DNA of 50,049 nucleotides. It comes from Oscillospiraceae bacterium. GTDB lineage: Bacteria; Bacillota; Clostridia; Oscillospirales; Ruminococcaceae. Under the pieces are notes generated by a model, which did no database searches, was not told where the DNA came from, and saw only the letters and a list, made by a program, of their open reading frames with translations. The stretch spans positions 1-50,049 of the forward strand of contig JAJQBX010000014.1 in NCBI GenBank assembly GCA_021203065.1, in the 5' to 3' direction. Positions 24,881 through 27,221 of this stretch are shown here, piece after piece. Within the stretch, counting starts at the first letter, position 1. Each line of letters starts with the position of its first letter. The translations under genes and the position numbers were made by a program.

Positions 24881-25414
24881 ATGGCGGACAATAAAAATGA
24901 AATTTCAATCCGCAGTTCTGCGGCGGAATATCTGACGTTTGTTGCCTCGACAGGCGACAGTGACGAAAGCATTGAAATGCGGTATGAAGACGAGAATATC
25001 TGGCTGACACAGAAGATGATGGCGGCACTATATAGTGTCACGGTTCCCGCCATCAACCAACATATCAAAAAAATCTACGAAGACCAAGAGCTTGCTCCTG
25101 AGTCAACTATTAAGAAATACTTAATAGTTCAAGACGAAGGTGGCAGGAAGGTTTCCAGAAATACAGACCACTATAACTTGCAGATGATAATAGCCGTCGG
25201 CTTCAAGGTGAATAACGAGCGTGCGGTTCAGTTCCGCAAGTGGGCAAATTCTATCGTCAAGGATTACACAATTCAGGGTTGGGTAATGGACGAGGAGCTT
25301 GCCAAGCAACACGCATTGAGCGAATTTGAAAAGTACAGAGTTGTGCAGGACAGGCTCTACGAGAGCGACTTTGACCGTTTTATTGAGGAGTGCAAAGAAG
25401 ATGACCAACCTTGA
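24881..25414 (+). CDS. RhuM-like protein, shortened
   Basis: A 177-aa member of the virulence protein RhuM family often found between hsdM and hsdS. The N-terminal part is complete: IRSSAAEYLTF, WLTQKMMAALYSVTVPAINQHIKKIYEDQEL and the KDYTIQGWVMDEE turn. The C-terminal YRVVQDRLYESDFDRF is also there, but the ~150 aa normally between them (full-length family members exceed 300 aa) are absent. The frame is kept, so this is an in-frame internal deletion or a short subfamily. It overlaps hsdS by 14 bp. Confidence 0.75.
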   Translation: MADNKNEISIRSSAAEYLTFVASTGDSDESIEMRYEDENIWLTQKMMAALYSVTVPAINQHIKKIYEDQELAPESTIKKYLIVQDEGGRKVSRNTDHYNLQMIIAVGFKVNNERAVQFRKWANSIVKDYTIQGWVMDEELAKQHALSEFEKYRVVQDRLYESDFDRFIEECKEDDQP

Positions 25415-26120
25415 CCAGCTACTAAAAGACCTTTGCCCGGAGGGGGTAGAGTATAGGAAATTAAATACAATATGCGAAATCTATGATGGCACGCATACCA
25501 CACCTAACTATACAGACAGTGGTGTTCCTTTTGTAAGCGTTGAAAATATAAATGATTTGTATGGAACGAAGAAATATATTTCCGAGAGCGACTACAAAAA
25601 ATATAAAATCAAGCCTCAAATCGGTGACGTGTTTATGACACGTATTGGCTCTATAGGAACATGTGCCGTTGTGGATAGAAATGATGATCTTGCTTATTAC
25701 GTATCTCTTGCTTTACTCAGACCTAATCCAGAAATCATCAACAGCAGGTTTCTAAAGTATGCCATTGAAAGCAAACAGGGAAGAAAAGAATTAAGAAAAA
25801 GGACGCTTATTAACGCCGTTCCTATAAAAATTAATAAGGATGACATTGGCTTGATAATAATCTCCGTCCCTCCCCTCGAAATCCAGCGTGAAATTGTCCG
25901 AATATTAGACAATTTCACGGAGCTAGAAGCGAGGAAGAAGCAGTATGAGTACTATAGAGACCAGCTACTGACTTTTGAACCCTTAGCGGGGGGAACTGCG
26001 TTGACGTTCGGTGGGTCAAGCTCGCTGAAATCGCAGACATTGGAACCGGCAGTAGTAATACTGACGAAGGGCTTGAAGAAGGTGTATATCCGTTCTATGT
26101 TCGTTCTCCTGAACCATTAA
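25401..26120 (+). CDS. hsdS: Type I specificity protein HsdS, first target-recognition half
   Basis: ATG 25401 opens a specificity gene: LDQLLKDLCPEGVEYRKL, one target-recognition domain (about residues 20-170) and the conserved spacer helix IVRILDNFTELEARKKQYEYYRDQLLTF ending near 25975. After the G6 tract at 25988-25993 the frame runs into unrelated sequence and stops at 26120. The true second half lies in another frame. As it stands the product is a half-size HsdS with a nonsense tail of about 45 aa; half-subunits can dimerise in some systems. Confidence 0.85.
   Translation: MTNLDQLLKDLCPEGVEYRKLNTICEIYDGTHTTPNYTDSGVPFVSVENINDLYGTKKYISESDYKKYKIKPQIGDVFMTRIGSIGTCAVVDRNDDLAYYVSLALLRPNPEIINSRFLKYAIESKQGRKELRKRTLINAVPIKINKDDIGLIIISVPPLEIQREIVRILDNFTELEARKKQYEYYRDQLLTFEPLAGGTALTFGGSSSLKSQTLEPAVVILTKGLKKVYIRSMFVLLNH
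25988..25993 (+). repeat. G6 tract at the junction of hsdS halves 1 and 2
   Basis: GGGGGG lies exactly where the reading frame must change by one base to join recognition domain 1 to domain 2. A G7 state would read continuous HsdS. Confidence 0.6.
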
Positions 26121-26552
26121 GAAAGAATGAGTACGAATATGATGAAACAGCCATTATAACAGCCGGAGACGGTGTTGGCGTTGGCAAAGTATATCACTAT
26201 GTTGAGGGAAAATATGCTTTGCACCAAAGAGCCTATCGGATTCATATCAACACGCCTGAAGTCATGCCGAAATATTATTATCATTACATGAAGTCGGCAT
26301 TTCTTCCGTACATACAAAAAACCATGTATCAAGGCTCTGTTGCTTCGATTCGCAGACCAATGCTGAATGAGTTTCCTGTGCCTGTTCCGTCACTTGATGT
26401 TCAAGAGCGTCTTGTCAATGTCCTCGATAACTTCGATGCTATTTGCTCTGACCTGAACATCGGTCTACCGGCAGAAATAGAAGCTCGCAAAAAACAATAT
26501 GAATTTTATAGAGATTGCCTCTTGACATTCGACATCAAGTCTGCGACAATCT

Positions 26553-27221
26553 TTGACAGACAGACAGACAGACAGACAGACAGACAGACAGACAGACGGG
26601 CTGATTAGGCTCTTCTTGTATGTTTTTGGTGTTGCAGAAGTTAGGCTGGATAGTATCTTTGAAGTTAAGGGTGGATATACGCCTTCAAAATCAAATAAAT
26701 CCTTTTGGGAAGATGGTACTATTCCGTGGTTCAGAATGGAAGACATCAGAGAAAACGGGCGGATTCTAAACTGTGCAATCCAAAGTATTAACGAACGTGC
26801 AGTAAAAAAGGAGCCGTTCAAAGAAAACTCAATTATAGTCGCTACATCTGCCACCATCGGAGAACACGCATTAATTACGGTTCCGTTTGTTTGCAATCAG
26901 CGTTTTGCTTGCCTTACACTGAAAGAGGAATACAAAGATATAGTAGACATAAAGTATATATTCTACTGTTGCTTTATCTTGGATGAGTGGTGCAAGCAAA
27001 ATGTAAATGAGGGCAATTTCGCTTCTGTAGATATGAAGCGACTCGGAGAATATACATTTTGTATTCCGACAATGCAAGAACAGAAACGTATCGTCTCCAT
27101 CCTTGACCGCTTCGACGCTCTTTGCAACGACATTTCATCCGGTTTACCGGCGGAGATTGAAGCTAGGAAGAAACAGTATGAATACTATCGGGATAAATTG
27201 CTGACTTTTAAGGAGATGTGA
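26553..27221 (+). CDS. hsdS: hsdS third target-recognition domain
   Basis: The frame covers the GACA tract and then a third recognition domain beginning VAEVRLDSIFEVKGGYTPSKSNKSFWEDG, with the spacer helix IVSILDRFDALCNDISSG and IEARKKQYEYYRDKLLTF at its end. No good ribosome site or ATG starts it (only TTG 26553), so it is meant to be read from domain 2. Removing one GACA unit, or adding two, places it in frame with domain 2. It stops 2 bp before hsdR. Confidence 0.8.
   Translation: MTDRQTDRQTDRQTDGLIRLFLYVFGVAEVRLDSIFEVKGGYTPSKSNKSFWEDGTIPWFRMEDIRENGRILNCAIQSINERAVKKEPFKENSIIVATSATIGEHALITVPFVCNQRFACLTLKEEYKDIVDIKYIFYCCFILDEWCKQNVNEGNFASVDMKRLGEYTFCIPTMQEQKRIVSILDRFDALCNDISSGLPAEIEARKKQYEYYRDKLLTFKEM
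26555..26597 (+). repeat. Tetranucleotide tract (GACA) x 10.75 in hsdS
   Basis: Ten perfect GACA units and a partial GAC lie between hsdS domains 2 and 3. Tetranucleotide tracts of this length are classic slipped-strand contingency sites. Length change by one unit moves the downstream frame; 9 or 12 units fuse domain 2 with domain 3, 10 units ends at TAG 26606. Confidence 0.95.

Follow-up and report, generated by a model that had tools for sequence, protein, structure and literature searches.

We describe here the hsdS specificity gene of a type I restriction-modification operon in a 50,049-nucleotide (nt) stretch of an Oscillospiraceae bacterium genome (assembly GCA_021203065.1, contig JAJQBX010000014.1, forward strand; hereafter the window), in which three target-recognition domains (TRDs) follow one another with a repeat tract at each of the two joins. 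The closest described systems share parts of this arrangement, and what is said of them follows the available portions of the cited papers. In NgoAV of Neisseria gonorrhoeae, a poly-G tract lies in hsdS; shortening it by one G fuses hsdS1 with hsdS2 and alters the specificity, the half HsdS is active, and 6 to 9 G occur among 92 strains (PMC9577141). The window locus resembles NgoAV in that a repeat tract at a TRD junction sets the hsdS frame, the poly-G ending the first half of hsdS; it differs in that NgoAV is described with two halves and one tract, with no third TRD and no GACA tract. The Helicobacter pylori system JHP1422/JHP1423, M.Hpy99XV, carries three TRDs in one HsdS and obtains two specificities from different TRD pairs; TRD2 and TRD3 of JHP1422 are identical and thought to be the product of unequal recombination, and the available text describes no slippage tract between them (PMC3936762, PMC3077401). 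The three TRDs of the window lie in separate frame steps; 15 of 38 relatives have all three in a single frame. JHP1272, a type IIG enzyme of H. pylori, has two homopolymer tracts, of which the first acts as an on/off switch and the second adds a C-terminal recognition region, thus changing specificity (PMC3936762). It is like the window locus in having two tracts in one gene, but it belongs to another enzyme class, is a single fused protein and, as described, uses homopolymers only. In inverting hsdS loci of the SpnIII type, several TRDs are reassorted via recombination between inverted hsdS copies, altering methylation (PMC7394358); no such inverted copies were found at the window locus.

Three-TRD HsdS proteins and repeat-switched hsdS genes are each already known. 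Repeats are present in 7.9% of hsdS genes, as stated in PMC7394358 citing Atack and colleagues 2020 (FASEB J), and three-TRD HsdS was reported earlier, as stated in PMC12429846 citing the same survey. The PADLOC specificity model PDLC03126 (690 positions) matches domains 1, 2 and 3 of the window at model positions 2-205, 225-449 and 622-687 (best of two stretches), an indication that public collections already contain three-TRD proteins. In the literature searched, which did not cover the Atack 2020 survey itself, we recognised neither two different tracts in one three-TRD hsdS nor a GACA three-TRD hsdS, and found no case of several repeat units at one TRD junction.

Among solved HsdS structures, EcoR124 (7bst_A, E 6.4e-74) is the closest to a profile built from 17 three-TRD relatives, not from the window's own pieces. 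The likeness to EcoR124I/II extends to HsdR, which has the EcoR124_C domain, and to the ladder of 4-residue repeats in spacer 1 of the relatives; EcoR124I/II differs in having two TRDs, and spacer 1 of the window is, by its length, without the 4-residue repeat. We know of no slippage tract in EcoR124I/II. We assign a probability of about 0.8 to the window locus being a type IC-like operon with a slippage-switched three-TRD specificity gene. A cell with such a gene can probably alter the set of DNA sites that it marks, depending on whether the protein made has one, two or three domains.

Frames and repeat tracts of the hsdS gene

The gene order and domains place the locus as a type I (EcoR124-like, IC) operon, hsdM-hsdS-hsdR. 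The full domain set of the IC group is present (HsdM_N, N6_Mtase, three copies of Methylase_S, HSDR_N and EcoR124_C), and both hsdM and hsdR are open and match their Pfam families along their whole length. A first-pass annotation of the window had claimed three TRDs in hsdS, each ending in a repeated spacer helix. Indeed, each of the three pieces matches Pfam Methylase_S by itself and closes with the same spacer helix (Table 1). It had also named a G6 run and a (GACA)10.75 tract as the frame joins, with coordinates that are exact to the base; in the translations the hsdS frame breaks only at these two tracts, and all three TRDs are otherwise open from end to end. The GACA tract (10.8 copies, 100% matches in the tandem-repeat search) encodes D-R-Q-T in both frames in use. 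Since it is the only site with at least five exact units in the 2.36-Mb genome, the array is not a product of chance.

The frames set out which proteins can be made. The start codon of hsdS is the ATG at 25401, domain 1 is the sole hsdS piece having its own ATG, and its frame continues beyond the G6 tract for 41 out-of-frame codons. Independent translation of TRD2 in the present state was rejected, as no ATG, GTG or TTG is present before 26219 in the domain 2 frame. For TRD3, a TTG at 26553 is in principle a possible start; no ribosome site was seen there by eye. The arithmetic given earlier is right on both joins: G7 fuses domains 1 and 2, as would any run length equal to 1 modulo 3, and 9 or 12 GACA units fuse domains 2 and 3. 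The present combination of G6 and 10 units had been read as leaving a half HsdS, and the frames confirm that only TRD1 is now translatable from an ATG. It is only by analogy with the active half protein of NgoAV that the encoded half HsdS is likely active.

Repeat junctions in related loci

A collection of one genome per species, covering 84,980 species, was scanned for stretches in which four or more GACA units come after the spacer helix. Besides the window, 109 stretches (L012-L120) have GACA at this point of hsdS, and a comparison with these relatives, in the spirit of a check suggested in the first-pass annotation, shows the same junction tract with differing lengths and phases. Isolates among them include Clostridium sp. 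ASF356, Gemmiger formicilis and Blautia caecimuris; many others are titled clostridial metagenome bins (not counted), and in the many relatives that are such bins the repeat lengths are consensus values. Domains were counted with a profile seeded by the window's three hsdS pieces. Dropping loci with too little flank reduced the 110 loci, window included, to 87 with at least 1350 nt upstream and to 49 with also 750 nt downstream; the second row of L083, with an interrupted tract, had been dropped beforehand. Two TRDs precede the tract in 75 of the 87 loci, one in 10, and three hits, with a broken TRD1, in 2. With both flanks available, 43 of 49 loci have at least two TRDs before and one after the tract, the other 6 having one upstream domain, and TRD1-TRD2-(GACA)n-TRD3 is thus the usual form. 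This means that the locus, earlier called unusual, is not so in being a three-TRD hsdS with a repeat before TRD3; the word does fit the added G run, which is rare. Of the loci with enough flank, 72 of 74 have HsdM upstream and 65 of 66 have HsdR downstream, as counted by tblastn with the window's proteins, a stricter count that replaced a loose motif count for these neighbours.

The phase of the GACA tract was counted in 38 loci that have TRD1 and TRD2 in one frame and both flanks (L050, L058, L083, L099 and the window being left out). TRD3 is in frame in 15, and the other two frames are found in 11 and 12; the distribution fits free drift through the phases (p 0.71, with loci treated as independent though some are related). 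In most out-of-frame rows, the product stops soon after the tract. The 80 uncut tracts have a median length of 54 nt (range 18 to 235), and tract length differs between near-identical genes: 73 versus 61 nt in L069/L124, 39 versus 63 in L022/L094, 103 versus 35 in L026/L087, and at least 29 versus 18 in L053/L078.

The repeat unit at this junction also varies. A search with a spacer protein profile, indifferent to repeat number and largely to repeat kind, returned 13 loci besides the window (L131-L136, L140-L146), five of which were already in the first scan (L131=L077, L133=L097, L135=L117, L142=L056, L143=L030). The unit is GACA in nine, GAGCA in L134, GAAC in L140 and GA in L136, and L144 has none; the eight new loci thus comprise four with GACA, three with other units and one without a tract, while L141 and L142 end at or in the tract. 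Being derived from GACA loci, with its last four residues lying in the repeat, the profile favours GACA. The presence of unlike units at a single point is an argument for selection acting on slippage at this junction.

Runs of G are concentrated at the TRD1/TRD2 junction. With the window left out, runs of at least 6 G number 5 in 87 junctions (3,525 nt) versus 7 in the 92,034 nt that make up the remainder of these genes (Fisher p 4.3e-5, or 3.5e-6 with the window); this exact test supersedes an earlier one (52 nt per junction, window included, p 1.4e-5). All four relatives with G7 (L045, L048, L098, L117) have TRD1 and TRD2 joined, as the arithmetic for the window predicts, and in L098, a close relative, the 500 nt before the tract are 84% identical to the window's. 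The frames are split by G8 in L051, whose contig ends inside the GACA tract, and by G6 in the window; in the repeat-blind sample L145 is joined by G9 and L136 split by G8. Which lengths are in phase depends on the neighbouring bases and so varies between loci. The window and L136 have neither tract in phase. Unlike the window, L051 has an ATG immediately ahead of its G8 run, from which translation of TRD2 could begin independently.

The spacers are of three kinds: spacer 1 of this class belongs to the N-half type and carries TAEL-type repeats, spacer 2 belongs to a related middle type and leads into a conserved linker, and spacer 3 resembles the second-half spacer of plain two-TRD genes (six such genes compared). 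When TRDs are linked into families at 50% identity, the families turn up again at positions 1, 2 and 3, which indicates that TRD3 belongs to the working pool. Spacer 1 forms a ladder of 4-residue steps, with 15 in 2 rows, 19 in 44, 23 in 34, 27 in 1, and 11 in the window alone (82 rows measured, 5 rows unmatched to the pattern). By its length, the window's spacer 1 is thus without any such repeat, the other 81 rows being one to four steps longer. We take this 4-residue repeat to be the one named TAEL. A TAEL repeat in the first-half spacer marks the IC group; as its copy number varies naturally, its absence in the window is compatible with IC membership.

Alternative explanations

Taken together, the 109 loci, their phases and length differences, the other repeat units and the G7 relatives support, by comparison, the earlier proposal of a slippage-switched hsdS with several product states; its half-HsdS part is likely by the NgoAV analogy only. 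That proposal also held that the locus could act as a phasevarion, in which the state of the methyltransferase would alter gene expression. Three other explanations need to be weighed. The tracts may only toggle a normal two-TRD HsdS on and off, with TRD3 an unused relic. Such switches are known for type III mod genes and an hsdM gene (PMC7394358, in the part available), products with GACA out of frame end soon after the tract in most such rows, and in a structure model such a product looks roughly like an ordinary HsdS. Considering that relatives keep TRD3 open with a normal C-half spacer, that the three-TRD protein is in a single frame in 15 of 38 loci, that differing repeat units occupy the TRD2/TRD3 junction, and that JHP1422, as described, shows that a three-TRD HsdS can work (PMC3936762), we find this explanation unlikely. 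We give somewhat less credence to a sequencing or assembly error, by which the true gene would have G7, with GACA as its single tract, and would be in the two-TRD state. Errors in the form of homopolymer indels are common, and the joined frames of all four G7 relatives would suit it. An out-of-phase G8, however, stands at the same place in two loci of other assemblies (L051, L136), and NgoAV alleles with 6 to 9 G are reported from real strains (PMC9577141, in the part available).

Least probable, in our view, is a decaying pseudogene, an hsdS broken by frameshifts and drifting, in which the repeats would be incidental. Three TRDs that are fully open, with frames broken at two repeats only, count against decay, as do an hsdM and an hsdR that remain open and family-matching over their length, and repeats kept at the same points in relatives in all three phases. 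Decay would fit the facts that TRD1 alone is translatable from an ATG at present, that the neighbouring RhuM gene is internally shortened, that an hsdS remnant lies elsewhere in the genome, that spacer 1 is the shortest measured and that the locus is found in only 1 of 31 genus genomes. A mechanism based on recombination between inverted copies of hsdS was rejected, as 23200-30400 has only inverted pairs of 16-28 nt (71-89%). The spacer profile found no second hsdS on this contig.

Several observations weigh against a slippage-switched three-TRD gene. The tract-length differences come from near-identical genes of relatives, none within one named species, and the tracts are equal in L018/L125 (29, 29) and L115/L123 (38, 38), pairs that show 100% identity over the parts compared and may each represent one genome. 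One of the 13 repeat-blind loci, L144, is without a tract; most of its TRD2 is gone, and its spacer 2 is retained. A short G run, or a repeat whose length approaches that of a read, may be misassembled, and with a G run as short as G6 slippage may be slow. The window's spacer 1, at the bottom of the 82 measured, could weaken TRD1 pairing, and TRD1 of JHP1422 is described as inactive alone, so a half HsdS need not work (PMC3936762). A model of the three-TRD protein of L117 gave no indication of pairing domains; built on 17 sequences, it has a predicted local distance difference test score (pLDDT) of 72.8 and a predicted template-modelling score (pTM) of 0.60. Whole known HsdS chains align to it only at about 20 Angstrom root-mean-square deviation, and BsaXI S (8w0p_C) aligns to residues 13-598 at 6.6 Angstrom over 309, from which nothing was concluded. 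The two-TRD model is also of middling confidence (pLDDT 75.0, pTM 0.59).

Operon surroundings and the proposed switch

Table 1. Features of the operon in the window.
Feature	Position	Strand	Evidence
hsdM, type I N6-adenine methyltransferase subunit, 519 amino acids	23319..24878	+	Pfam HsdM_N 7.4e-20, N6_Mtase 1e-116; PADLOC MTase_I
RhuM-family gene, shortened, 177 amino acids, overlaps hsdS start	24881..25414	+	Pfam Virulence_RhuM, model positions 1-72 of 252 only
hsdS domain 1 (TRD1 and N-half type spacer), frame 0	25401..26120	+	Methylase_S 2.1e-16
Spacer helix 1	25918..25976	+	repeat comparison of locus
G6 run, TRD1/TRD2 junction, frame switch 1	25988..25993	+	sequence
hsdS domain 2 (TRD2 and middle-type spacer), other frame	25994..26608	+	Methylase_S 1.3e-14
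Spacer helix 2, EIEARKKQYEFYRD	26472..26530	+	translation and repeat comparison
(GACA)10.75 tract, TRD2/TRD3 junction, frame switch 2	26555..26597	+	tandem-repeat search
hsdS domain 3 (TRD3 and C-half type spacer), frame 0	26553..27221	+	Methylase_S 5.9e-36
Spacer helix 3	27151..27209	+	repeat comparison of locus
hsdR, type I restriction subunit, EcoR124_C domain (type IC-like)	27224..30343	+	Pfam EcoR124_C 3.5e-69, HSDR_N 3.1e-47; PADLOC REase_I E 0

The spacer profile matched in 1 of 31 genus genomes, the window's own, in 8 of 394 genomes of the order sample at E 1e-24, one being a plain two-TRD gene (L137), and, at E 1e-27, in 8 of 391 of the class sample and 2 of 398 of the phylum sample, own genome included in each sample. 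When the locus DNA was searched in 60 whole genomes (own included), five matched, and besides the window only short matches were found: RhuM in L008, the GACA tract of another gene in L009, and chance-like pieces in L010 and L011. Directly upstream of the operon, on the other strand at 17775-22840, lie a serine recombinase, an IstB-like ATPase, a RepA_N protein, a relaxase and a MobC-like gene. The operon may thus be part of a mobilisable element, in keeping with the finding that the other 30 genomes of the genus that were searched lack it. After hsdR, a WYL regulator and a GmrSD-type protein occupy 30361-34103, and this region is possibly a defence island. The start and end of the RhuM gene match a longer gene in another genus genome (L008), its middle being absent. 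The hsdS remnant in the same genome (L129, G000 contig 26) is short and comprises a spacer helix and domain end only. Six contigs of a viral collection (L121-L126) bear GACA hsdS genes; prophages may transport the system or its carrier, or these contigs may be misbinned. In another genus genome (L009), a 24-nt GACA tract opens a membrane-protein frame on the minus strand near 1512-1536. This protein presumably resembles an acyltransferase, and GACA switching may act in a surface-modification gene as well.

For the slippage-switched three-TRD gene, we propose the following mechanism. Strand slippage in growing cells would alter the tracts. As long as the G run is out of phase, as at present, TRD1 alone would be made, giving a half HsdS that may dimerise and recognise a palindromic target. 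If the G run but not GACA came into phase, the product would be a normal two-TRD HsdS (TRD1 and TRD2), and with both tracts in phase a three-TRD HsdS, in which TRD3, having a spacer of the normal C-half type, could replace TRD2 as the partner of TRD1 or pair with TRD2. The specificity of methylation and restriction would shift with the state, without recombination, and target spacing would be under a third, slower control, namely how many copies of the 4-residue repeat spacer 1 contains. A bolder version, to which we give somewhat less than an even chance, is that of a stepwise specificity counter, in which the G phase picks a one-TRD dimer or a multi-TRD HsdS, the GACA phase adds TRD3 in place of TRD2 beside TRD1, and the spacer 1 repeat is the third dial, giving at least three methylomes; the TRD2/TRD3 junction would then be a hot spot where GACA, GAGCA, GAAC and GA arose independently under selection for switching.

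Proof of a working third TRD is given by a single H. pylori protein, two of whose TRDs are identical (PMC3936762, in the part available), and the loci found here provide a test set for the role of a third TRD in a type I enzyme. If the proposed switch is true, the gain or loss of a few bases would change both the phages that the cell resists and the sites at which it methylates its own DNA, and the state of the switch could be read from the sequence.
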